Below are positions 37,592 to 50,686 of a stretch of 64,000 nucleotides of DNA, piece by piece. The DNA lies in assembly GCA_001899635.1 (NCBI GenBank), contig MKVQ01000005.1, forward strand, positions 124,001-188,000. Reading direction: 5' to 3'. Position numbers and translations under genes: made by a program. The notes beneath the pieces were generated by a model. The model had not been told where the DNA came from and did no database searches. It worked only from the letters and a program-made list of their open reading frames with translations. Within the stretch, counting starts at the first letter, position 1. Each line of letters opens with the position of its first letter. The stretch comes from Myxococcales bacterium 68-20 (lineage in GTDB: Bacteria > Myxococcota_A > Polyangia > Polyangiales > Polyangiaceae).

Positions 37592-38608
37592 TCAGCTTCC
37601 GATCCAGACGCCGCGCTGGTTCGCGATCATGATGTCGCGCCGGAGCTCGGCTTCCTTCCGATCGAGGTCGGGACCATGCTCGCCACGACGCCGGCGGCTC
37701 TTCACGAACGCCAGCTCGACGAGCTGGAGCTGCTTCTTCCTGCGCACGCTGAACGCCGACCAACCCTTCGAGAGGAGGACGCCCCAGTTCTTGAAGCCGA
37801 GCGCGAAGTAGCTCGAGACGAGCTGCAGCTCCCTCGGGTGAAGGAGATTGCCGACCTCTCCGAAGAGCTCGCGAACGACGATGCTCCGGTCGCGCACGAC
37901 GAGGAGCGCGAGGAGGACGAAGAAGAGGATGTCGATTAGCCACGAGATGAGGAGCATGAGCACGAGCCCGCCCTCACCGAAGACCGTCGGCAGGAAGTTG
38001 TGCATCGCATGCATCGCGATCGCGCAGCCGAAGCCGATGACGGGGGCGGCGATCTTCACGAACCAGTTCTTCGATTCGGCCGCGATGCCGAAGCCGAGCC
38101 CGGTGCAGGCGGTGAACGTGCAGTGCGACAGTCCGAGGAGCACCGTGCGGAGGAACAGGAGAACGACGAAGCCGCCGAGCCCGTTCGTCGCGAACTGGTT
38201 GGCGACGTAGAGGATGTCCTCGGTGAGGGTGAAGCCGAGACCAACCACGCCGCCGTAGATCGTTCCGTCGAGCGGCCCATCGAGCTCGCGGAGCCCGAGA
38301 GCGCTGATCAAGGCGATCAGGGCGACGCCAATCCCCTTGAACGTCTCCTCGAAGACGGGCGCGAAGACGGTCGCACCGACGATGTCCATGTCGCTCGGCG
38401 ACGCATCGAGCAGCGCCGACGTGAACGACTGGGCGATGCTCGAGCTGATGCCGCCGCCGAGCGTGGCGAAGAGCGCCCCCCAGACGAATGCCGCCATGAT
38501 GAGCCACCAGGGCTCGGGCTCGAAGCGATCGACCCAACGGATGAAGACGAGGTACGTGAGCACGAGCGGCGTGACGCAGATCAAGCCGAGGATGAAGCCC
38601 ACGAGCAT
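37592..38608 (-). CDS. PrsW family intramembrane metalloprotease
   Basis: A 338-residue membrane protein with seven or more helices. The PrsW/Abi-type motifs are present: APVFEETFKG with Glu87-Glu88, GFTLTEDILYV with Glu130, LSHCTFTA with His162 and MHAMHNF with His200/His203. These residues form the zinc site of CPBP-like intramembrane proteases; Bacillus PrsW cleaves an anti-sigma factor. No sigma or anti-sigma gene is adjacent, so the target is not indicated. The C-terminal 90 residues are basic and cytoplasmic. Confidence 0.9.
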   Translation of the reverse strand: MLVGFILGLICVTPLVLTYLVFIRWVDRFEPEPWWLIMAAFVWGALFATLGGGISSSIAQSFTSALLDASPSDMDIVGATVFAPVFEETFKGIGVALIALISALGLRELDGPLDGTIYGGVVGLGFTLTEDILYVANQFATNGLGGFVVLLFLRTVLLGLSHCTFTACTGLGFGIAAESKNWFVKIAAPVIGFGCAIAMHAMHNFLPTVFGEGGLVLMLLISWLIDILFFVLLALLVVRDRSIVVRELFGEVGNLLHPRELQLVSSYFALGFKNWGVLLSKGWSAFSVRRKKQLQLVELAFVKSRRRRGEHGPDLDRKEAELRRDIMIANQRGVWIGS

Positions 38609-38737
38609 CGCTCGACCACGATAGCAGACTCCAGCGTTCGAGGCCCCGACGCCACGAAGTCCCGCTTGTTCGACCGCTGCCGCGCAAGCTGTCCGCCCGA
38701 TCGCCGGCGGACCGCCGATCGGTGTAGGGTGCAGACG

Positions 38738-40297
38738 GTGAGCACGCAGGGCGTCGTCGCAGCAGGGGATCCGCAGACGGCGGAGGCCGGGGCCGAGCTC
38801 CTCCGTGAGGGCGGCAACGCGGTGGACGCCGCCGTGGCGGCCGCGTTTGCGTCTTTCGTCTGCGAGCTACCGCTCTGCTCCCCGCTCGGCGGCGGCGTCT
38901 GCGTGCTCGAGCGCGCCTCGCACGCGCCGGTCGCTTTCGACATGTTCGCGCGGACGCCGGGACTCGGCCTTCCTCCCGGGACCAAGCCGCGCGACTTCGC
39001 GGCCGTGACGATCGACTTCGGTGCAGCGTCCCAGGTGTTCCACGTCGGCCGCGCGAGCGTGGCCGTTCCGCTCGCGCTCACGGGGCTCCTCGAGCTGCAT
39101 CGCCGTTGGGGCGCACGTCCCCTCACCGAGGTCCTAGCTCCGGCGATCGAACTCGGTCGTGACGGCTACACGCTCGGCCCCGGCGTCGCGTTCGTGTTCG
39201 ACATCCTGAAGCCGATCGTGGACCGCAGCGCCGAGTGCCGGCGCCTCTTCGTCGACGACAGCGGCGCGATCGCGACCGTGGGGGCTCGCCTCCGCAACCC
39301 GGACCTCGCCGCGACGCTGGAGCGGATCGCGCGGCGTCCCGCGGATGCCGTACGCGAGCTCCACGAGGCGCTCGCGCGCGAGATGGGGCCGGACCGCGGC
39401 GGGCTCATCACCCCCGAGGACCTCGCGGCGGCGACGATCGCGGAGCAAGCCCCGGTCATCGTCGACCACGACGGCTGGCGCCTCGCGACGATGCCGTCCC
39501 CATCGACCGGCGGCGTCCTCGTCGCGCTCGGCCTTCGCCTGCTCGATGGAGTGCGGCGCTCCCCTTTCCTCTCCCGCGAGCACGTGCTCCTCGTCGCAAA
39601 GGCCCAGGAGGCGCTACTCGCCGAGCGCGACGAGACGTTCGCGGAGCGGTGCGCCGATCCGGCCCTCGTCAAGGCGCTCCTCGACGACGAGCGACTGGCA
39701 GCTGCCCGCGAGCACGCGCGGAACAACCTCCTCGGCTCGACGACGCACATCAGCGCGATCGACGCGCACGGGACCGCGATCGCGCTGACGCTCACCAACG
39801 GCGAAGGCTCGGGCCACGTCCTTCCCGGCACCGGGATGATCGCGAACAACCTCCTCGGGGAAGAGGATCTCCACCCACGCGGCTTCCATCGCGATCCGCC
39901 AGGCACGCCGCTCGCGACGATGATGGCGCCGACGATCGTCTCGCGCGACGGCGATCGGATCGCGCTCGGGAGCGGCGGCTCGAACCGCCTCCGCACCGCC
40001 ATCCTCCAGGTGCTCGTCGGGCTGGTCGAGCATCGCGTGTCGCCCGCCGATGCCGTGCACGCACCACGGGTCCACCTCGAGATCGACGGCGCAACACACG
40101 AGCCGCGGATCGCGTTCGAGGCCACGGGGCTCGCCGACGAGGTCGTCGCGACGCTCGTCGACCGCTACCCGACGGCACCCGCGATCTTCTCCGCACCGAA
40201 CCTCTACTTCGGCGGCGTCCACCTCGCGATGCGCCTCGGCGGCAGCTTCGCCGGCGTCGGCGACTCGCGCCGCGGCGGCGCCTGCATCGTCGTCTAG
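38738..40297 (+). CDS. Gamma-glutamyltransferase family protein
   Basis: A 519-residue member of the Ntn-hydrolase family that transfers or hydrolyses gamma-glutamyl groups (glutathione and related compounds). The N-terminal GGNAVDAAVAAAFA, the PSPSTGGVLVALGLRLL region and the self-cleavage site TTHISAIDAHG with Thr335 as likely nucleophile are clear, followed by GSGGSNRLRTAILQV. No signal peptide is visible, so it may be cytoplasmic, unlike most bacterial GGTs. I chose the GTG giving MSTQGVVAAGD, 9 codons from the ribosome-like GTAGGG; a GTG nine bp upstream is possible. Confidence 0.9.
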   Translation: MSTQGVVAAGDPQTAEAGAELLREGGNAVDAAVAAAFASFVCELPLCSPLGGGVCVLERASHAPVAFDMFARTPGLGLPPGTKPRDFAAVTIDFGAASQVFHVGRASVAVPLALTGLLELHRRWGARPLTEVLAPAIELGRDGYTLGPGVAFVFDILKPIVDRSAECRRLFVDDSGAIATVGARLRNPDLAATLERIARRPADAVRELHEALAREMGPDRGGLITPEDLAAATIAEQAPVIVDHDGWRLATMPSPSTGGVLVALGLRLLDGVRRSPFLSREHVLLVAKAQEALLAERDETFAERCADPALVKALLDDERLAAAREHARNNLLGSTTHISAIDAHGTAIALTLTNGEGSGHVLPGTGMIANNLLGEEDLHPRGFHRDPPGTPLATMMAPTIVSRDGDRIALGSGGSNRLRTAILQVLVGLVEHRVSPADAVHAPRVHLEIDGATHEPRIAFEATGLADEVVATLVDRYPTAPAIFSAPNLYFGGVHLAMRLGGSFAGVGDSRRGGACIVV

Positions 40298-40332: not shown

Positions 40333-41403
40333 TCAGGGAGCGTCGGGGAAGTCGCCCGCCGGCGGGAGCTTGGCGTTCCCCGGCGCGAACGCGGCCGCGA
40401 TCGCGACGAAGGACTCGTTGCCGTCGCGACGGTTCTGGTGGACGTAGAGGTAAGAACGATCGCCGAGGTCGAGGAGCGCCGGCGCAGCCTCCTTCTGGTT
40501 GACCGAGTAGACCGGCACCGGTTGGCGCACGAGCGTGCCGGACTCTCCGTAGCGCGCCGCGAAGCCGATCGCCGTCGCGCCGGCGTCGTCCGTTCCGGTG
40601 TAGAGCACACGCACATGAAAGCGGCCCGCCGGCGTGGTTCGCGTGACGACGCACGGGTCGCCGACCGCCGCGGTGTCGAACGGCGGCTTCTCGTTGGGGA
40701 GGAGGCTGCCGGGCGCAGGCGGCGGCGACGGCACGAGAACCGGTACGGTTCCGATGCGGGTCCACGCGATGCCGTCGGCGCTCTCGGCCTCTCCGATCGC
40801 ATTCCCCGCGGCGTAGAGCATCCGGAGCCGTCCGTCGGGGAGCTCGAAGACGGTCGGCGCGCGCGGGGCGGCGTTCTCCCACGATCCGGCGAGCGCGTCG
40901 CGCGCGAGGACCGGGCGCGTCTCCTTCCGGAACGCGAGCCCATCGGTCGATCGCGCAACGCCGATCCCTTCGCTTCCGCCGTAAAAGAGGAGGATCTCGC
41001 CGCGGAACCGAACGAGCGCCGGTCCCGAGAGAGCGCCGGCTCCCTCCCAGGGCTGATCCGGCTGGAGGACGATCGCGGGCTTCCGCCCGAAGTGGCCGCT
41101 CGTGCCGAAGAACGTCCGCTCGTCGAGCGCGCGTGTCCTCACGATGACGTCCTTGGAGTCCACGCGCGCGACGGCGTAGAGCAGCGTCGCGTCACCGTCG
41201 CGGAGCACGGCGGGCTCGCGATAGAGGGCAGCGGCGTCGTCGAGCACGAACGGCGCGAGGCCCTTCACCTCCTCCGAGTCGAGCTTGCGGAACGGCCCGA
41301 CGCCTGCGCTCGGGAGGTTCCGGTCCCCTTCCCCTTCCGCGCCGGTCGTGGCGCACGCGGCCAGCACGAGCGCGACGACGAGAGAGCTCCGAGCCGTGCT
41401 CAT
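40333..41403 (-). CDS. Five-bladed-propeller-like lipoprotein
   Basis: A 356-residue protein with lipoprotein signal MSTARSSLVVALVL and lipobox LAAC. The body repeats a blade pattern seen in GH43/GH32-type propellers: LYREPAVLRDGDATLLYAVA, ALVRFRGEILLFYGGSEG, IGVARSTDGLAF and IGEAESADGIAWTRIG. The (S)(T/A)DG(L/I)A(F/W) motif recurs. I cannot find a convincing acid-base pair, so a glycosidase role is possible but unproven. Its ATG overlaps the stop of the FadL-like gene upstream (ATGA), making it the last gene of a three-gene operon. Confidence 0.8.
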   Translation of the reverse strand: MSTARSSLVVALVLAACATTGAEGEGDRNLPSAGVGPFRKLDSEEVKGLAPFVLDDAAALYREPAVLRDGDATLLYAVARVDSKDVIVRTRALDERTFFGTSGHFGRKPAIVLQPDQPWEGAGALSGPALVRFRGEILLFYGGSEGIGVARSTDGLAFRKETRPVLARDALAGSWENAAPRAPTVFELPDGRLRMLYAAGNAIGEAESADGIAWTRIGTVPVLVPSPPPAPGSLLPNEKPPFDTAAVGDPCVVTRTTPAGRFHVRVLYTGTDDAGATAIGFAARYGESGTLVRQPVPVYSVNQKEAAPALLDLGDRSYLYVHQNRRDGNESFVAIAAAFAPGNAKLPPAGDFPDAP

Positions 41404-42851
41404 CGTGTCACCGCCTTCGCCGTCGTTGGGTCATGCTTCTCGTCGAAGGCGAACCCGGCCGTGAGGCCGACGTTGAGGATCGATCCGCCCGCGGTGTAGT
41501 CGCCGACGTAGTCGGCCGCGCTCGTCTTTCGCGTCGTCTCCGTCGGCAATTGGCTCAGCTGGACGTGACCGTCGATCATCAGCGTCCCGGGGAGCTCGGG
41601 GAGCACGTCCTGGAACGCGGCGCCGATACCGAACGAGACCGTGTGCCGGTCGCGGTCGACGTAGTTGGTGGAGCCGGTCTGCGCCGCGATCGGGCTCTTC
41701 GCGATCTCGTAGCCCGCCCGGAGGAAGCCTTCCCTCCGATTCCCGCTCCTCTTTTCGGCGAGCGCGTTCCACTCGAGGCCGAGGCGGGGCACGAGCCGAT
41801 CGTACATGTGGAGCGGCACGATGCGCGTCGGCGCCGGCGTGGTCGGCGGCGTCACCGTCGACGGCCAGCCGCTCGGCGGCGGCGGGATCTCGAGGACGGC
41901 GTCGAGCTTCGCAACCGGCGCAACGTACGCGCTCCAGTTGATCCAGGTCGCGTCGAACGTCGCCTTGAGCCGGTCGGTCACCGCCCACGAGCCGCCCACG
42001 ACCGCCTGCTGCGGGAGGAAGTTGTTGATGCTGTGGGTCTGGAGATCGTAGAGCGCGGTCGTGAGGCCGGAGATGTCGCCGAAGAGCCGGGCCGACAGAT
42101 CGAGCGCGAGCTGGAACTCGCCGCGGTAGACGGCCGCGAGCGCGACCCGCTCTCCGAGAGCGACGCGTACGCCCGCCTGCGGATAGCGAACCGCGGTGAG
42201 ATCGGCGTCGACCTCGTGACGCAGCTTCGAGTCGTCGGGGCGGAAGACATTCGCGCCGCCGGTGATGTCGAGACGGCCACGCGTCGACGACATGAACGAG
42301 AGACCGCCTCCGATCCAGAGCCAAGGCGTGGGCTCGATCGCCACGTTCGCCGCGAGGAAGAGCCGCTGATTGCGATTGTCGTAGAGCTCCCAGCGCGGCT
42401 GCTCCTGCCTGAGCGCCCGGACGCGCGAGATCCGATCGTCGGGGAGGTGCACCGCGATGCCGAACGCGAACGGCAGCCCGAGCACCGTCCCGGGTGCGAC
42501 GAGGCCGGCGTTCATTCCCTTGACGGGATCGACGCCGTTGTCGCGTCCGTTCATCTCCAGCGAGTGCTCGGCGCGAAAGTACCCGATCCCGATCTCGAGC
42601 CCGCGCGAGCGTGCGAGCGCCGCGGGGTTGTAGTAGCTCGCCGCGAAGCCACGCGTCTCCGCGGCGACGGCACCGCCCATCGCCGTCTCACGCGATCCGA
42701 AGCCGAACGTGTCGGGCGGATTCGCTCGCGCGGGCGACGCCCCGACGAGGAGCGCGAGCGCACCGAGCAATGCCGGTGCCCAGCGCACACGCGAGTGGCC
42801 CGCGGAAGAGGCCGTCCCGCGGCGCGACCGGAGCGAGCGATGGCGCTCCAT
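41400..42851 (-). CDS. FadL/TodX-like outer-membrane transporter (second copy)
   Basis: A 483-residue barrel. A basic lead (MERHRSLRSRRGTASS) precedes the signal core and ARANPPDTFGFGSRETAMGGAVAA, the N-terminal hatch region of FadL-type proteins. YYNPAALARSRGLEIGIGYF is the NPA motif typical of the family. FadL proteins bring long-chain fatty acids or other hydrophobic molecules across the outer membrane. Start and stop codons overlap both neighbours by one to four bases. It shares its layout with the preceding gene, so the two are probable paralogues. Confidence 0.87.
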   Translation of the reverse strand: MERHRSLRSRRGTASSAGHSRVRWAPALLGALALLVGASPARANPPDTFGFGSRETAMGGAVAAETRGFAASYYNPAALARSRGLEIGIGYFRAEHSLEMNGRDNGVDPVKGMNAGLVAPGTVLGLPFAFGIAVHLPDDRISRVRALRQEQPRWELYDNRNQRLFLAANVAIEPTPWLWIGGGLSFMSSTRGRLDITGGANVFRPDDSKLRHEVDADLTAVRYPQAGVRVALGERVALAAVYRGEFQLALDLSARLFGDISGLTTALYDLQTHSINNFLPQQAVVGGSWAVTDRLKATFDATWINWSAYVAPVAKLDAVLEIPPPPSGWPSTVTPPTTPAPTRIVPLHMYDRLVPRLGLEWNALAEKRSGNRREGFLRAGYEIAKSPIAAQTGSTNYVDRDRHTVSFGIGAAFQDVLPELPGTLMIDGHVQLSQLPTETTRKTSAADYVGDYTAGGSILNVGLTAGFAFDEKHDPTTAKAVTR

Positions 42852-44182
42852 CAGAACTTCACCCCCGCGGTGAGGCCGAAGACCTTGATGTGCCCGGATG
42901 CCTCGCCCTTCGAGAGCTCCGCGCCTGCGCCGTCGGTCGAGGTGATCGTCCGCGGCAGCAGCAAGTGATACTGGGCGTAGAAATCGACGTCGACCGGCGG
43001 AAACGATCCGTCGAGGGACAGGCCCACGCCGGTCGTGAGGGCCACGCGGGTGGCGTCGAAGTATCGCGTCGGAACGGCGATGTCGGTCTTCGAGGCCATC
43101 TCGAACGCCTCCGATCCGGGCAGCTCGGACGGAAGCGCCGACGTCTCGAGGAACCCACCTCCGCGGCCGCGCAGGACGACTCCGGGCGCAAGCTCGAAGC
43201 CCTGCTCGGCGCCGATGCGTACCGCAACGGTGTCCCGCCAGTCGATGCGCGGCGGGACGAGACCGCAGGCCCCCGGCCCGCCTTCGCTGCACGCGATCGT
43301 CGGCTCGAGCACGCCGGGGAACGCGCTCCACTTCTTGTAGACGAGCTGCAGGGCGAGCACATTGAGCTTCTCGACGCGCGCGACCTCGACGGCGCCCTGC
43401 GCGGGGTCGTACTGCGCGAGGCCGGAGATGTTCAGGAGCGGGATCGCGATCGACGAGAGCTTCGTCCCGTCGACGACGACCTGGAATCGCGCGTCGAGCG
43501 TCCCTCGGTAAGCGAGGCCGACGCGGACCTTCGAGGACCCGGGCAGATCCCACGTCACGCCGAAGACCGGAGCGTAGGTCGCCACGAGCTGGTTCTCGAC
43601 CCGCGTCCCGACCCGCCCCGTCACGTCCGTCGCCGCCACCACCGTGCCGGCGATCTCCGCGAGCGCAGCGAAGCCGACGCCGGCGCGGATCCCGTAGGCG
43701 ATCTCGGCGCCGAGACCACCACGGACCGCGAGCGACTGCGCACGGTCGCCGAGGAGCGGGAACTGCGTCGTCTCGGGGTACAGCACGCGGCCACGCACGA
43801 TCACGTCGGTCGGGGTGTAGAACGCGAGCCCGATGCCGATGCGGTCGCGCAGCTTGCCACCGAACGGAAGCGGGATGTCCGCCCCGATGACGACCCCCTT
43901 CGCCGGCTGGGTCGACGCGCGGTTTGGCAGGTTTTGCCCGACGGCGTCGAGCGCGAAGACCGCGCCGACGTAGCCGAGCGTCAGCTTGTTCTGACGGATC
44001 GTCGAGGCGAGCGCCGGATTGTGCCAGGCGGACTCGTATCCGCCGGCGTGGGCCGTGCCGGTCGCCCCCATCGCGCTCGTCCGCCCGCCGTAGCCGAAGA
44101 GGTCCTCGGGCGACGCGTTCGCGCTCCTCCCGAACGCGGTCAGGGCGATGGCCCCGACCGCAAACGCGACCACCCTCCGCAT
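42851..44182 (-). CDS. FadL-like outer-membrane transporter (first copy)
   Basis: A 443-residue barrel beginning MRRVVAFAVGAIALTAFG, a signal peptide ending NASPEDLFGYGGRTSAMGATGTA. The NPA motif is ESAWHNPALASTIRQNKLTLGY, and the protein ends GLTAGVKF with a terminal Phe. The chosen ATG gives a normal signal; an upstream start would add an unlikely 16 residues. Its stop overlaps the next gene's ATG (TGATG). It leads the operon of two FadL-like barrels plus a propeller lipoprotein. Confidence 0.88.
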   Translation of the reverse strand: MRRVVAFAVGAIALTAFGRSANASPEDLFGYGGRTSAMGATGTAHAGGYESAWHNPALASTIRQNKLTLGYVGAVFALDAVGQNLPNRASTQPAKGVVIGADIPLPFGGKLRDRIGIGLAFYTPTDVIVRGRVLYPETTQFPLLGDRAQSLAVRGGLGAEIAYGIRAGVGFAALAEIAGTVVAATDVTGRVGTRVENQLVATYAPVFGVTWDLPGSSKVRVGLAYRGTLDARFQVVVDGTKLSSIAIPLLNISGLAQYDPAQGAVEVARVEKLNVLALQLVYKKWSAFPGVLEPTIACSEGGPGACGLVPPRIDWRDTVAVRIGAEQGFELAPGVVLRGRGGGFLETSALPSELPGSEAFEMASKTDIAVPTRYFDATRVALTTGVGLSLDGSFPPVDVDFYAQYHLLLPRTITSTDGAGAELSKGEASGHIKVFGLTAGVKF

Positions 44183-44330: not shown

Positions 44331-45629
44331 TCAGCGGGTGGGTCGAGCCGTGCTCGCGAGGCGGCTCAACCCCTGGTAGTGCGCCTCGATCGGCGCGAGG
44401 TTCACTTCGTCCATGAACGATGCGAACGCGAAGTAGGGCAGCAGCGTCGACCACCGTTCGAGCCATCGGGGTCGATGTTTCGGCCGAGAAAGGAGCCCCA
44501 TGTTCCGGAGCTCGGCCAGCGCGATGACGTCATCGAGCGCGATCCGGCCGGCGACGATCATCTCGACCTCGTCGCGGAAGCCCGCGCGCACGAACGTCGA
44601 GAGGAACGCGTAGACGTGGAGGAGCCCGGCGAGGTAGCAGGCGTCCTTCGTGAACGGAGCGCCCCCCGCGACCAGCCCACCGCGGAAGATACGCGTCGCG
44701 TCGAGGTAAGCGTCGCGCTGGCTCGCGCCGCGCTCCACGAGCCAGCGGAACAGATCGAGGAAGCTCGCTCCGTCCTCCGCCATCTCCACCATCTTCACGC
44801 GAATGGCGAGACGTTCGAGCCTCGGGGTCGCGAGCGTGTGATTGTGGAGCTCCGCGAAGACCGCGAGGCCCTCCTGCGTCGCGGTCGAGCGCGGACCGCC
44901 GGCCTTGAGGAACGGCGCCAGCTCCTGCGCGGCGCCGTTCTGCGCGGTGAAGGCGTGGGTCTCGACCTCGTGAACGTAGAGCCCCTTGGCCTCCCACGGC
45001 TCGAAGGTCGCGTCCGGACGGATCCGCACGCGGGTCATTCCAGCGATCGCCTTCGAGGTGCACCGCTCGTCGAGGATGACGTCGACGTCGATCTTCGGCC
45101 GATGCGCCTGGATGCGTGTCTCGAGCTCGGCGGCGAGCTGCTGGGCGGTGAGCTTCTCCGGCGCCTCGTCCTGCGCCTCGTCCCAGCCTTGGACCTGCAG
45201 GCGCGCGAGGAGATGGTCAGCGAGATCGACGTTGCGCGGGCATTGCGAGCCGGCCGGAGCCCCCCAGTAGGAGGTCCGGGCGCCGCCGTAGATCTCGCGG
45301 GAGGCATCGCCGAACGCCTTCGTCTCGACCGACAGGAGAAGCCGGTTGCGATCGACGGCCGAGCGGACCGCGGCGCGCAGGTAGGTCGGGATCGGCTCGT
45401 CTCCCTCGATCGAGCTCGCGAGCTCCTCCAGGCGACGGCTCTCGTCGGTGAGCGCGTCGTGATCGATCGCGTACGTGGGAGCGGGGAGCTTCGCGCACTT
45501 CGCCCCGAAGAACCCCTCTTCGACGTCACGCGACCACGCGATGGCCCCGAGGAGGTTGCCTCTGGATTTGAGAGCCCCGAGCGCATGGCTCACACGCTGG
45601 AGGAGGTCGCGCGCGTCATCGACGTCCAT
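44331..45629 (-). CDS. QEGLA-motif peptidase-like protein (DUF1704/MATCAP family)
   Basis: A 432-residue soluble protein. A putative zinc site HEVETH occupies residues 220-225, and STATQEGLAVFAEL follows about 30 residues on; this pair defines the family called flavohaemoglobin expression-modulating QEGLA-motif proteins (DUF1704), which includes the eukaryotic tubulin tyrosine carboxypeptidases MATCAP. Cytoplasmic location is likely. The bacterial substrate is unknown. I chose the ATG preceding DVDDARDLL because the upstream 52 residues are Arg-rich and resemble non-coding GC sequence. It is transcribed from its own promoter, apart from the MepA-like gene. Confidence 0.85.
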   Translation of the reverse strand: MDVDDARDLLQRVSHALGALKSRGNLLGAIAWSRDVEEGFFGAKCAKLPAPTYAIDHDALTDESRRLEELASSIEGDEPIPTYLRAAVRSAVDRNRLLLSVETKAFGDASREIYGGARTSYWGAPAGSQCPRNVDLADHLLARLQVQGWDEAQDEAPEKLTAQQLAAELETRIQAHRPKIDVDVILDERCTSKAIAGMTRVRIRPDATFEPWEAKGLYVHEVETHAFTAQNGAAQELAPFLKAGGPRSTATQEGLAVFAELHNHTLATPRLERLAIRVKMVEMAEDGASFLDLFRWLVERGASQRDAYLDATRIFRGGLVAGGAPFTKDACYLAGLLHVYAFLSTFVRAGFRDEVEMIVAGRIALDDVIALAELRNMGLLSRPKHRPRWLERWSTLLPYFAFASFMDEVNLAPIEAHYQGLSRLASTARPTR

Positions 45630-45726
45630 GGCGTCCGATTCTACCGGTCGACGCAGCAGGCGCCGGCACAATCCAAATCGGCGGCGGCGAAACGCGAGCG
45701 CTCCGCCTCCCTCCCCGACGAGGCGC

Positions 45727-47007
45727 TCAGGGGACCGTCGTGCGACGGCAGGGCGCTCCGCCCGACGCGGGCTTCGTTCCCGCAACCGCGACCGGGCTCG
45801 GCGGGACGCGGCGCGCGGGGAGCACGAGGCGCGCGGGCACGGCGATGCCGCCGGTCTGCGGGATCTTGATGGGCTTGTTCACGCGGAGCACGTCCTTCTT
45901 GAGCGCGTTCGCCTTCTTGATCGCCTCGCCGGTCACCTTGTAGCGGAGCGCCAGGTGGCTCAGCGTCTCTCCCCGCTTCACCGTATGGGTGATGTACTGC
46001 GTCGGCGCAGCGACGAGACGGCGGGCCAGGAGGAGGCGATAGGCTCGGCGTCCGAGCTCTTGCGCCCGCGGGCTGTAGAAGCGGACGTGGAGATGCGACG
46101 CGTGCCCCTTTGCATGGAAGATCAGCGGGCGCTGGCTCTTCCCTCCCACCTGGAAGATCTGGTCGAGCCACGCGGGGTCCTCGCCGATCTCCAGCGCATG
46201 AGCCTTGAGGATGCGCTGGAGGCTGGTGTCGACGAGGATCAGATCGACGTCGCTCTCGGCGATCAGCGTCCGAATGAGGTGCCACGTCCTCGCGCGATCG
46301 AGGTTCGAGCCGTTCGCCGTCGCATACCAGCGGTGCCCCTCGGTCAGGTAATAGCTGATGTCGACGTCGCGTCCGGACTGATGGCTGACGTGCGGAGGAA
46401 AGTGACCGCCGTATCTTCCGCTGACGTCCCCGATGAACACCTTCGGCGTATCCGGGAAACGAGCGGCCACGGCATCGATCGCGTGTGAGAGCGCATCGAC
46501 GGTCTCCTGCGTGCCCCACGCGCGCCCGGGAGCCATGAGCTCCCAGTTCTCGCCCGCCGGCATGCGCACGCCGGCGACGAGCACGCCGCCGTGCGCGCGT
46601 CCGATCGACATCGGCCCGAGCGCCCCGATGTCCGCGCGAAGGCGCGCATTGATCTCCGCGTCGGTGAGCTCGGCGAACGGCGCGGGCCCCGACGCTCCTC
46701 CGGGCGTCGCTGCCTGCTCCGGCAATTCGAAGCCGTCGTCGAGCGTGGTCGGCTCGGCGTCCGCCCCCTCGTCCGCGCTGCCCGCGCCGGCAGCAGCAGC
46801 CACGCCCTCGTCGCAGTCCGGCTCGCTCGGCGCACCTGCGTCGATGGCCCGTGCAGGGGAATCGCTCGCCTCTCCACCGGCGGCGCCGCGTGCCGTCGTG
46901 GAGTCTGAGGACTGCGGTCCGCTGCGAGACGCAAACGGTCCCACGCAGCCGGTCACGGCGAGCACGAGCCCGAATGCGAGGACCCTGGAGCTGCTGGGCA
47001 CGCGCAT
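45727..47007 (-). CDS. MepA-like murein endopeptidase lipoprotein with LysM domain
   Basis: A 426-residue protein with lipobox VTGC at residue 21 and an Ala/Ser/Asp-rich linker of about 90 residues. The catalytic domain carries HVSHQSGRDVDISYY and KGHASHLHVRFY, the metal-binding motifs of penicillin-insensitive murein endopeptidases (M74, LAS-type). A LysM domain (HTVKRGETLSHLALRY) follows and binds peptidoglycan, and the tail is Pro/Arg-rich. It should cut peptide cross-links in the cell wall from the outer membrane side. Genes on both sides run separately. Confidence 0.9.
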   Translation of the reverse strand: MRVPSSSRVLAFGLVLAVTGCVGPFASRSGPQSSDSTTARGAAGGEASDSPARAIDAGAPSEPDCDEGVAAAAGAGSADEGADAEPTTLDDGFELPEQAATPGGASGPAPFAELTDAEINARLRADIGALGPMSIGRAHGGVLVAGVRMPAGENWELMAPGRAWGTQETVDALSHAIDAVAARFPDTPKVFIGDVSGRYGGHFPPHVSHQSGRDVDISYYLTEGHRWYATANGSNLDRARTWHLIRTLIAESDVDLILVDTSLQRILKAHALEIGEDPAWLDQIFQVGGKSQRPLIFHAKGHASHLHVRFYSPRAQELGRRAYRLLLARRLVAAPTQYITHTVKRGETLSHLALRYKVTGEAIKKANALKKDVLRVNKPIKIPQTGGIAVPARLVLPARRVPPSPVAVAGTKPASGGAPCRRTTVP

Positions 47008-47851: not shown

Positions 47852-49042
47852 TCAGGCCCGCGCGGCGAGCTGCCCGCAGGCGGCGTCGACGTCGGCGCCT
47901 CCGCTGTAGCGCCGGTGCGAGAAGACGCCTCGCTCGCGAAGCGCGTCGCGGAACGCCTGCTCGCGGTCGTCCGCTGCGCGGGCGAACGGATCGCCGGCGC
48001 CGTCATTCGCGGGACCGATCGCGTTGTACGGGATGACGCTGAGCCTGGGCGAGCGGCCGGTCCGATCGCGGAAGCTCGCGACCAGATCCGCGAGCGCATG
48101 CGCGTGCTCGACGCCGTCGTTCACGCCCGCGAGGAGCGTCACCGCCCACATCGGCGCGAGCCCGGTGAGCGTCGCATGCTCGCACGCGGCCGCAACGACC
48201 TCCTCGAGCGAGTGCGAGCGTTCGATCGGCATGAGGCTACGGCGTGTGCTCACGAGCGCCGAGCCGATCGACATCCCGAGCCGAACCTTCGGAGCCTCAC
48301 GCGCGAGCCGGCGGATCCCGGAAGGAAGCCCCGACGTGCAGACAGTGATCGCGCGCGCGTCGATGGCGAGCGCGCTCGGGTCGGACATGACCTCGATCGC
48401 GGCGAGCACGCGATCGAGGTTCGCCATCGGCTCGCCCATCCCCTGGAAGACGACGCCGTGGACGCGCTCCGGCGCGGACCGCAAGCCGCCGCCTTCGAGC
48501 CCTCGGCGGACGATGCGCACCTGCTCGACGATCTCCCACGTCTCCAGGTTGCGCAGAAGGCCCAGCCGTCCCGTCGCGCAGAACGAGCATCCGAGGGCGC
48601 AGCCGACCTGCGAGCTCACGCATACGGAGAAGCGGCCCTGCCGTTCGAGCGGGATGCGCACCGTCTCGACCACGTGTCCGTCCGCGGTCGTGAGGGCGTA
48701 CTTCACGAACGGGTCGACCCGGCTCGCGCGAGTCTCCTTGACCTCGAGCTGCGGAACCCAGCCCGCTCGCGTCACTGCCTCACGCGAGGTGCGGCGTATG
48801 CCAGAGCTCGGTGTCCTCGGATCCTCGTCCCGGTGGACCTGCGCGACCACCCGGCGCGCCTCCTCGAGCAGCAGCTCGGGCACGGCCCGGACGAGCGCCG
48901 CCGGCGTGAGCCCCTGCAGAGCCACGCCGCGACGAAGCCCCGTTTCGCTCGGGGTCTCCGCTGGACGCGACTGCGGACGAGGCGTAGGTCCGGAGCGCTT
49001 TGAGACTGGGATCTCGCGCACGCGGTTGCCATAGCACGGCAC
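47852..49042 (-). CDS. rlmN: RlmN-family radical SAM 23S rRNA methyltransferase
   Basis: A 396-residue radical SAM enzyme. The cluster motif CALGCSFC places Cys148, Cys152 and Cys155 as the 4Fe-4S ligands; Cys389 near the end (DVDAACGQL) matches the catalytic cysteine of RlmN. GMGEPMANLDRV is the usual GEP motif. RlmN methylates A2503 of 23S rRNA and a tRNA adenosine. A deviation is SIGSALVSTRR where most RlmN proteins read SLHA, so a diverged paralogue is possible. It is divergent from tatB with only 34 bp between starts. Confidence 0.88.
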   Translation of the reverse strand: MPCYGNRVREIPVSKRSGPTPRPQSRPAETPSETGLRRGVALQGLTPAALVRAVPELLLEEARRVVAQVHRDEDPRTPSSGIRRTSREAVTRAGWVPQLEVKETRASRVDPFVKYALTTADGHVVETVRIPLERQGRFSVCVSSQVGCALGCSFCATGRLGLLRNLETWEIVEQVRIVRRGLEGGGLRSAPERVHGVVFQGMGEPMANLDRVLAAIEVMSDPSALAIDARAITVCTSGLPSGIRRLAREAPKVRLGMSIGSALVSTRRSLMPIERSHSLEEVVAAACEHATLTGLAPMWAVTLLAGVNDGVEHAHALADLVASFRDRTGRSPRLSVIPYNAIGPANDGAGDPFARAADDREQAFRDALRERGVFSHRRYSGGADVDAACGQLAARA

Positions 49043-49076
49043 CCGACAAAGGCAGTCGTGCTACCGTGCACCTACC

Positions 49077-49862
49077 TTGTTCGGCTTCAGCTTCTCGGAG
49101 CTCGTCGTAGTGGTGATCGTGGCGCTCGTCGTCATGGGCCCCAAAGACCTGCCCAAGATGCTCCGGCGTGTCGGCCAGTGGGCCGGCAAGATCCGGCGCG
49201 CTGCCGCCGATCTGCGCGCGCAATCGGGGATCGACGACGCCCTCCGCTCCGAGGGCCTCTCCGAGGACATCGCCGAGATCCGCAAGCTCGCGCGCGGCGA
49301 GCTCGATGCCGTCCAGCGCGCCGCTCGCATCGAGGACGACGCGTACCGTGCGCCCGTCGCATCGGACGGTTATTCCCAGCGTGGCGACGACTTCTACGTC
49401 GTCCGCGATCGCGAATATCCGCGCGACGGGGCCGACGCCTACGGCGCCCTCCCCGACAACGCGATCGTCTACGCCGAGACGCTTCCGCGCAGCCCGCTCG
49501 CGCGCGATCCGCTCTACCGCCTCGGCGACGCCGACGCGGAGGTCCCGCCGGAGCCCGAGCCGCCGACCTACGGCGACGACGCGACGGACGACGACGCAAA
49601 CGCGACCGGCCCGACCCTGATGGGCATGCCGGTGCCCTACGAGCCCCCCGGGAGCGCTGCCAAGCCCGAGCCCGAGCCCGAAGCTCAGCCTGCCGCCGAG
49701 CCCGAGGCCACGAGCTCCGCGACCGGGGCGGTCCAAGCGGTCCCAGCCGGCGCGGGGGCGACCCTGATCGGCATCGCGGCGCCGCAGGTCGACCGGCGCG
49801 CGGACGACTCCGAGAACAAGACCGGCGATGAGGCCGAGGCTACCGCCGAGGTCCGCAGCTGA
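49077..49862 (+). CDS. tatB: Sec-independent translocase subunit TatB, with long acidic tail
   Basis: A 261-residue protein starting at TTG. The N-terminus has the TatA/B layout: FGFSFSELVVVVIVALVVMGP, the hinge KDLPKMLRR, and an amphipathic basic helix. TatB is chosen over TatA because of the FGFSFSEL start, the long coil IDDALRSEGLSEDIAEIRK and the neighbouring tatC. The C-terminal 150 residues are acidic and Pro/Glu-rich, much longer than E. coli TatB. It cooperates with TatC in recognising twin-arginine signals such as that of the DUF1501 protein here. Its stop overlaps the tatC start (TGATG). Confidence 0.88.
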   Translation: MFGFSFSELVVVVIVALVVMGPKDLPKMLRRVGQWAGKIRRAAADLRAQSGIDDALRSEGLSEDIAEIRKLARGELDAVQRAARIEDDAYRAPVASDGYSQRGDDFYVVRDREYPRDGADAYGALPDNAIVYAETLPRSPLARDPLYRLGDADAEVPPEPEPPTYGDDATDDDANATGPTLMGMPVPYEPPGSAAKPEPEPEAQPAAEPEATSSATGAVQAVPAGAGATLIGIAAPQVDRRADDSENKTGDEAEATAEVRS

Positions 49863-50686
49863 TGTCAGCCGAGACGGAGCGAGAGCTCACGCACATGGAT
49901 CCCGAAGACGACATCAAGATGACGATCTGGGAGCACATCGGCGAGCTCCGGAAGCGCCTGGCGCGCGCCGCGCTCGCGCTGGTGGGCGGCGCCGTCGTCT
50001 GCTGGACGTTCCGCGAGCGGCTCCTCGGTTGGATCACGACGCCGTACGCGACGGCCTGGCGCGAGCGATTCCCCGAGCTCGTCAAGGCGGGCCAGTCGCC
50101 CGAGCTGCAGACGCTCGCCCCCGCGGACGCCTTCGTCAACTACATGCAGCTCTCGCTGGTCGGCGGCGTCATCATCGCCGCGCCGGTCATCTTCTACCAG
50201 CTCTGGGCCTTCATCAGCCCGGGTCTGTACTCGCGCGAGAAGCGCTACATCATCCCGTTCGTCGTCTTCTCGACGACGCTCTTCCTGTCCGGCATCTCGT
50301 TCGCCTACTACGTCGCGCTGCCGTTCAGCTTCCCCTTCTTCTTCTCGCTCCTCGGATCGGTCGGTGGTGACTCGGGCATCATCCTCACGTCGAAGCCGAC
50401 GATGGAGTACTACCTCGACTTCGCCGAGCACATGCTGCTCGCGTTCGGGTTCGTCTTCGAGCTGCCGCTGTTCATCGGCTTCCTCGCGCTCGCCGGCATC
50501 GTGACACCGCAGCAGCTCGTGAAGTTCAGCCGCTACGCGATCGTCGGCGCGTTCGTCGTCGGCGCATTCGTCACGCCCGGCCCCGAGATCTCGAGCCAGA
50601 TCGCCGTCTCGAGCGCGCTCATCGCTCTCTACTTCCTCAGCGTCGGCCTCGCCTTCCTCATCTACAGGAAGAAGCGCGACGCCTGA
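49862..50686 (+). CDS. tatC: Sec-independent translocase subunit TatC
   Basis: A 274-residue membrane protein with six helices. The N-terminal HIGELRKRL is the conserved cytoplasmic motif that reads the twin-arginine signal, and FISPGLYSREKRY and VGAFVTPGPEISSQ are also typical of TatC. It forms the receptor complex with TatB; tatA is not visible in the window. The start codon is coupled to the tatB stop. The gene is followed by a 25-bp tandem repeat and a hairpin. Confidence 0.96.
   Translation: MSAETERELTHMDPEDDIKMTIWEHIGELRKRLARAALALVGGAVVCWTFRERLLGWITTPYATAWRERFPELVKAGQSPELQTLAPADAFVNYMQLSLVGGVIIAAPVIFYQLWAFISPGLYSREKRYIIPFVVFSTTLFLSGISFAYYVALPFSFPFFFSLLGSVGGDSGIILTSKPTMEYYLDFAEHMLLAFGFVFELPLFIGFLALAGIVTPQQLVKFSRYAIVGAFVVGAFVTPGPEISSQIAVSSALIALYFLSVGLAFLIYRKKRDA

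Follow-up and report, generated by a model that had tools for sequence, protein, structure and literature searches.

A conserved cassette of two diverged FadL-family barrels and a GH130-like propeller lipoprotein in Myxococcota

To our knowledge, FadL channels have mostly been described as lone proteins that act independently. In Myxococcales bacterium 68-20 (G000, a genome of 11.9 Mb), two genes for FadL/TodX-type outer-membrane barrels are followed directly by a gene for a beta-propeller lipoprotein, which raises the question of whether the three genes form a unit, and what a lipid-anchored propeller would do beside two barrels. The genes lie in a 64-kb window on contig 5 (MKVQ01000005.1, positions 124,001 to 188,000), i.e. 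the whole stretch of DNA analysed here, and coordinates below refer to this window. An initial annotation had proposed a unit for uptake of hydrophobic compounds in which the lipoprotein captures or processes the ligand. Here we show conserved gene order, overlapping junctions and co-inheritance of the three genes and, on balance and with modest confidence, we favour a co-translated module that would take up a hydrophobic ligand at the outer membrane, in which the lipoprotein would be a non-catalytic receptor or adaptor.

The three open reading frames (ORFs) are on the minus strand, without gaps, in the order FadL1, FadL2 and propeller lipoprotein. FadL1 extends from the ATG at 44182 to the TGA at 42851 (443 aa), FadL2 from the ATG at 42851 to the TGA at 41400 (483 aa), and the lipoprotein gene from the ATG at 41403 to the stop at 40333 (356 aa). 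As the initial annotation had stated, the genes overlap at each junction: at 42851, in TGATG, one base (A) is common to FadL1 and FadL2, and the ATGA at 41403-41400 gives FadL2 and the propeller gene four common bases. By eye, FadL2 could also start at an in-frame GTG located 21 codons further in, from which the signal peptide would be shorter and more usual; the one-base overlap thus depends on the start chosen, since the GTG start would undo it. GC content at third codon positions was 0.88 in the lipoprotein ORF and 0.90 in the FadL1 ORF.

For conservation of this order, each of the three proteins was searched against 289 class genomes, an even draw from a larger group, and scoring was limited to 5–7 first-look candidates per genome, so misses may be false. 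Matches were found in 105 genomes for the lipoprotein, 151 for FadL1 and 161 for FadL2. Of the 105 lipoprotein-positive genomes, 97 carry the lipoprotein gene behind FadL2 on the same strand, the two matched stretches being −1 to 2370 bases apart. Among the eight genomes lacking this adjacency, four (G263, G086, G286 and G281) have the lipoprotein and FadL2 on different contigs, and three (G214, G249 and G001) have no strong FadL2 match, with weak ones in G214 and G249. The eighth, G238, which is on one contig, keeps both the propeller (C1:6291833-6292885) and the FadL pair (6860472-6863146), 568 kb apart. A profile search in 25 further genomes of the class found the propeller next to FadL2 in 17, and the three-gene unit was seen in at least 114 of the 289 genomes. 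When a strong FadL2 match was defined as a best match of E 1e-45 or better (126 genomes, including G241 and G210), the propeller adjoins FadL2 in 113/126; outside these, 35 FadL2-positive genomes have weaker matches, one of which (G163) has the adjacency. Two genomes without adjacency (G011 and G020) keep a full-length propeller on another contig.

A FadL2 alignment was used to scan named genomes, which confirmed 143 places, and the best 80 of these were analysed; some locus counts contain repeats, because L099/L170 are on the same contig, as are L066/L152. The nearest FadL2 matches among these 80 came from Labilithrix metagenome-assembled genomes (L106 and L107). A FadL2 profile score of at least 300 was reached in 62 of the 80 loci, 61 of them with FadL1 upstream and 56 with the propeller downstream. 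The locus without FadL1 (L109) begins at a contig start. Of the six without propeller, three (L153, L163 and L164) have a match that reaches the contig end, the contig of L158 ends ∼1 kb further on, and L150 and L183 are followed by other genes. In the remaining 18 loci FadL2 scores are weak; these loci have one or two FadL genes and no propeller match except in L170, and the diverged propeller of L168 was recognised by eye and profile. The gene-order check that the initial annotation had proposed therefore came out in its favour: because the propeller adjoins FadL2 in 113/126 class genomes and 56/62 named loci (best 80 of 143), it is no random neighbour of the FadL genes to which it had been said to be coupled, and the absence of conserved linkage that the annotation had named as the contrary outcome was not found.

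The linkage also occurs beyond the class. A propeller-profile search matched 115 of 235 genomes of the phylum, many through short stretches only, and 20 propeller-matching genomes, of which 18 lie outside the class, were then searched with the FadL2 profile. The propeller stands beside FadL in 13 of these 18 (G318, G428, G334, G458, G342, G391, G434, G464, G460, G448, G474, G419 and G406; in the last two it adjoins FadL fragments) and does not in five (G374, G393, G426, G436 and G456); since the genomes were chosen beforehand for a propeller match, these counts give no phylum-wide rate.

Overlapping junctions are likewise common. Starts were set by signal-peptide and lipobox rules, independent of the stop of the neighbouring gene, and open-ended or start-less loci were excluded. 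Under these rules, 46 of 57 named loci have overlapping FadL1 and FadL2 genes (24 by 1, 20 by 4 and 2 by 7 bases), and 31 of 39 have an overlap of FadL2 with the propeller gene (22 by 4, 8 by 1 and 1 by 13 bases). In a tree of 65 rows, one branch has all 23 FadL1 sequences on the same side, and another branch does so for all 23 FadL2 sequences, each with a Shimodaira–Hasegawa-like approximate likelihood ratio test (SH-aLRT) support of 99; this was a quick tree without bootstrap, and its row L003_own, a non-FadL sequence on a very long branch, carries no weight. The two barrels thus represent old, separate lineages kept side by side, and since FadL rows of more distant kinship are placed between the two, the tree shows no single duplication restricted to the FadL1-FadL2 pair. 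In FastTree trees of 37 taxa, the gene trees shared 25 (FadL1-FadL2), 28 (FadL1-propeller) and 24 (FadL2-propeller) of 34 splits, and only 0.2–0.3 splits were shared after label shuffling. This agreement shows joint descent of the three genes, which shared species history could produce by itself and which is no proof of contact between the proteins.

Both barrels belong to the FadL family, as the initial annotation had read them. FadL2 matched Pfam PF03349 above the cut-off (E 8.4e-12, 44.7 bits); the match of FadL1 was weak (E 5.7e-4, 18.9 bits, cut-off 29.7), and 55 of the 62 members of the FadL1 family match PF03349. Against solved structures, the FadL1 family profile matched the Pseudomonas aeruginosa homologue 3dwo (E 2e-20) and Escherichia coli FadL (E 3e-13). 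For FadL2, an AlphaFold2 model from 58 sequences (predicted local distance difference test (pLDDT) 87.2, predicted template modelling score (pTM) 0.83) has N-terminal helices followed by a barrel. In Foldseek, the top 23 rows for this model were E. coli FadL and its mutants, the P. aeruginosa homologue, CymD and TodX; in VIA-align, the best was E. coli FadL (3pf1_A, Z 32.4, root-mean-square deviation (rmsd) 4.5 over 339), TodX reached Z 31.2, and transport-type FadL, TodX, CymD and TbuX together spanned Z 28.8–32.4. Both rankings are of top rows, and a family unlisted there is not thereby excluded; identity between FadL2 and known FadL-type structures in the structural alignment was 16–20%. 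The model thus predicts for FadL2 the fold of FadL/TodX transporters, in which the barrel has 14 strands.

The N-terminal hatch region agrees with this assignment. An NPA motif is found at residues 55-57 of FadL1 (44012-44020, minus strand) and in 55/62 rows of the FadL1 alignment, and at residues 75-77 of FadL2 (42621-42629, minus strand) and in 54/58 rows of the FadL2 alignment, so that the hatch is predicted for FadL1 by NPA and for FadL2 by NPA and model Z. The mature start predicted by eye precedes the NPA Asn by 31 residues in 62/62 FadL1 and 58/58 FadL2 sequences, a distance that resembles E. coli FadL (Asn33 in titles of PDB entries). Barrel fold (by the FadL2 model) and NPA hatch are thus common to the proteins here and to E. 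coli FadL, 3dwo, TodX, CymD and TbuX; unlike these known transporters, the barrels here form a tandem, long-diverged pair with a conserved lipoprotein neighbour.

The third protein has no Pfam match. Its lipobox, LAAC at residues 14-17 (41353-41364, minus strand, read by eye), predicts a lipidated Cys17, which is invariant in alignment A4, partly by construction since its rows were picked via a lipobox search; the following residue is A, G or S in 39/40, as expected of an outer-membrane lipoprotein, in which Asp does not follow the lipobox Cys. Behind the lipid-anchored linker there is a GPFR tag at residues 36-39 (41287-41298, minus strand), of which G36 and P37 are at least 90% conserved in alignment A1, and P37 is also conserved in A4. 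The remainder is confidently modelled as a five-bladed propeller (AlphaFold2, pLDDT 92.0, pTM 0.88), with five three-stranded blades over residues 62-340 (40384-41220, minus strand) whose strand groups are 62-92, 126-152, 181-208, 246-285 and 306-340. The initial annotation of a five-bladed-propeller-like lipoprotein is thus borne out by lipobox and model. The lipoprotein profile matched a 1,2-beta-oligomannan phosphorylase (E 5e-12), and in VIA-align the model superposed best on the same enzyme (9gph_B, Z 28.0, rmsd 2.5 over 257 residues). BT_0996 and other enzymes of glycoside hydrolase families 130 and 43 (GH130 and GH43) ranked just behind in both Foldseek and VIA-align; the rows for this model are of the five-bladed glycosidase type, and here too an unlisted family is not thereby excluded.

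Is the propeller an enzyme? GH43-type enzymes carry a triad of an Asp in blade 1, an Asp in blade 3 and a Glu in blade 4. In GH130 one Asp is invariant, and according to PMC4599007 its mutation D142N inactivates BT3780. The EDPR of phosphorylase 9fj8 and of mannosidase BACOVA_03624 (3qc2) aligns with RAPT of the window propeller, and reading the Asp of EDPR as the catalytic one places Ala182 (40858-40860, minus strand) at its position, a mapping by sequence alignment over a short stretch and not by superposed coordinates. Across 41 homologues this position holds A in 23, S in 11, R in 3, G in 3 and E in 1, and D in none, and Asp was also found in 0/22 of a second aligned set that overlaps the 41. 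For the triad, an acidic residue before Pro in blade 1 is present in 35/41 (17 Asp), the blade 3 position is A/S/R/G with one E, and the blade 4 position is D in 22/41 and E in 1/41 by the same kind of alignment; neither blade 3 nor blade 4 thus conserves its acidic position. Because the GH130 catalytic Asp appears to be lost in 41/41, we read the lipoprotein as a probable pseudoenzyme that has kept the GH130/GH43-like fold. The five-bladed propeller is shared with GH130 mannoside phosphorylases and beta-1,2-mannosidases (9gph, 7fip, 5a7v) and their GH43 relatives, from which the window protein differs by the missing catalytic Asp, the lipid anchor, the GPFR tag and the FadL linkage. That the lipoprotein processes the ligand, as the initial annotation had allowed, is therefore unsupported, with the Asp missing throughout and the triad unconserved.

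How might such a trio work? In the module that we favour, FadL1 and FadL2 would pass a lipid-like molecule (a fatty acid, lipid or hydrocarbon) across the outer membrane, using hatch and lateral exit as FadL does. The lipid-anchored propeller would sit at the barrels in the same membrane as their non-catalytic partner, either on the surface as a ligand receptor or in the periplasm as an acceptor or scaffold, and the two barrels may cooperate or may serve two related ligands. Uptake of a hydrophobic compound is inferred from membership of the FadL family. The module is supported by the linkage, the junction overlaps, the agreement of the trees, the ranking of the FadL2 model, the NPA motifs and the propeller fold that lacks the Asp, and also by G238, G011 and G020, where the unlinked parts are all kept. 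Further support comes from Myxococcus xanthus, in which, according to PMC4048283, a mutant of the FadL protein MXAN7040 was unable to take up a palmitate analogue; the neighbouring number MXAN7039 denotes a putative lipoprotein in the same list of outer-membrane proteins (PMC3222651), which makes the two a putative counterpart of FadL plus lipoprotein by gene number and protein list. A two-part system is also described in PMC5989066, namely the alkane uptake operon AupA-AupB of Marinobacter, which includes an outer-membrane protein. AupB is an inner-membrane protein, unlike the lipoprotein of the cassette, and FadL2 scored 23.5 bits (E 1.8e-5) against the NCBIfam AupA model with its cut-off of 840, far below equivalog level.

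Several observations weigh against this module. The adjacency is absent in 13 of the 126 genomes with a strong FadL2 match (G238, G011, G020, G263, G086, G286, G281, G234, G284, G229, G105, G241 and G210); in G234 the FadL2 match sits at a contig edge, and five (G105, G210, G229, G241 and G284) show no propeller beside the FadL pair. The unit is patchy across the class, and since G061, G111 and G220, which belong to the same genus as the window, were without all three genes in first-look searches, it is dispensable. Genes are inserted between FadL2 and the propeller in L074, L076 and L077, and between FadL1 and FadL2 in L078/L134, and the tree agreement may merely reflect species history. In M. 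xanthus, MXAN7041 is a cyclic-nucleotide-binding protein according to PMC5131308, so that MXAN7040 is not visibly paired with a second FadL, and another study reports MXAN7040 to be downregulated during predation (PMC9548883). Moreover, FadL-family barrels also act in assembly or secretion, as PMC12578637 describes.

This last point is the basis of a different explanation, in which BamG- or PorV-like barrels fold, dock or secrete outer-membrane or surface proteins with a lipoprotein partner and do not transport lipids; we consider it unlikely. The same source has BamG, a FadL homologue, bound to the surface lipoproteins BamH/BamI in the beta-barrel assembly machinery (BAM) of Bacteroidota, where BamI has a propeller, and in VIA-align the FadL2 model did match Bacteroidota BAM chains (Z 26.1–27.3) and chains of the type 9 translocon (6h3i_F and 8gl6_F, ∼27). 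However, transport-type FadL, TodX, CymD and TbuX scored above both groups, and BamG has an N-terminal extension of ∼10–12 residues through the lateral opening, which, by the predicted mature start, is absent in 62/62 FadL1 and 58/58 FadL2 sequences (120/120 in all). Moreover, the BamI propeller is six-bladed versus five blades here, no BAM or type 9 gene was found among the neighbour genes scanned, and no link to BamA was seen. Assignment to these families was rejected, as FadL1 reached 11.6 bits against an NCBIfam cut-off of 250 for BamG, and scores for the PorV family of type 9 secretion were 20.1 and 12.9 bits against 90.

It would be more surprising still if the propeller were catalytically active at the surface, as a glycosidase or phosphorylase trimming a glycolipid, and the barrels imported the lipid part of that glycolipid. 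Fold and profile are nearest to GH130/GH43 enzymes, and blade 1 mostly keeps its acidic residue before Pro, as such an enzyme would; the invariant GH130 Asp (Asp142 of BT3780 in PMC4599007) is nevertheless replaced in all 41 homologues, blades 3 and 4 do not conserve their acidic positions, and with catalytic residues missing an active enzyme is disfavoured. Finally, operon neighbours need not interact, and flanking genes (RlmN-like, TatB and TatC, see below) are likewise syntenic in part of the loci, which would suit a lipoprotein that is a chance neighbour or merely has a common promoter with the FadL genes. We hold this to be very improbable: flanks change among families while the three-gene core stays in 113/126 genomes, the core recurs in the 13/18 genomes outside the class, and both parts are kept where they are unlinked. 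The linkage counts in class genomes and named loci (56/62, best 80 of 143) rule out a random neighbour.

The unit was kept at three genes because the flanks differ between families, and a larger operon was set aside for the variation of the flanking genes. Downstream of the cassette, the window has a gene for a gamma-glutamyltranspeptidase in convergent orientation (38000-40297). FadL1 is immediately preceded on its own strand, at a distance of ∼150 bases, by a gene of the microtubule-associated tyrosine carboxypeptidase family (MATCAP, PF08014, E 1.1e-97; 44331-45785), here in a bacterium, and its score for the NCBIfam QEGLA family was under the cut-off. MATCAP, an M74-LysM peptidase and RNase H are located between the cassette and a group comprising an RlmN-like radical S-adenosylmethionine gene, TatB and TatC (47852-50686). 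In the loci of relatives, which extend ∼6–8 kb on each side, MATCAP and RNase H were found in 0/120 at E 1e-8, and one or more of RlmN-like, TatB and TatC lie near the cassette in 28/120, with some records counted twice. We read this co-location as chromosomal synteny of housekeeping genes, which would not be members of the unit.

Other flanks are specific to groups of loci. PrsW flanks the cassette in L066 by Pfam, with the same cluster in L067-L069, and a D-aminoacyl-tRNA deacylase (named by eye) is upstream in L083, L086, L087 and L097. In some families of the class, two tandem genes for hydrolases of the metallo-beta-lactamase fold follow the propeller on the same strand (L097:4711-6506, Pfam on one; the same cluster in L083, L087 and L096, and a single copy in L084 and L088). 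A short-chain dehydrogenase-like gene (by eye) stands between FadL2 and the propeller at L074:8936-9742, and the gene order of L074 is the same as that of L119 (Sorangium cellulosum So0157-2). The named loci from cultivable carriers also include the cassettes of S. cellulosum So ce26 (L140) and Minicystis rosea (L123). Distant tandem FadL pairs behind which no propeller was found (L172:5989-8459, L174:3142-5624 and L175:4748-7227) cluster together in the tree.

A second, paralogous FadL-FadL-lipoprotein cassette was seen at L098:6706-10801, L168:5938-10054, L170:4166-8351 (on the contig of L099) and L104:74-4177. Its lipoprotein has 23–24 cysteines, most of which belong to a module that separates the anchor from the propeller, compared with 1–5 cysteines in 40 propellers of the main cassette, and as disulphide-rich stalks suit the surface, this lipoprotein may be at the cell surface. 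A bolder version of the uptake module, which we regard as possible and rather doubtful, would have a formerly sugar-cleaving propeller as dedicated receptor and gatekeeper, held at the surface in one complex with FadL1 and FadL2 that captures a lipid or glycolipid, and the second cassette with the Cys-rich stalk as the same machine for another ligand. SusCD is the comparison for such lidded, two-channel FadL transport.

A literature search, with most subscription journals outside its scope, found no description of a module of two FadL proteins and a propeller lipoprotein. Already known from the sources cited above are the two-gene alkane uptake operon AupAB and FadL-family barrels bound to lipoproteins in Bacteroidota BAM. 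A cassette that conserves two diverged FadL barrels beside a lipid-anchored putative pseudoenzyme of GH130-like fold is neither AupAB nor BAM. Within Myxococcota the three-gene cassette is kept across several families and beyond a single class, and this conservation suggests that FadL transport can require a partner outside the barrel. The cassette thus offers a defined, testable gene trio for lipid movement across the outer membrane in Myxococcota.

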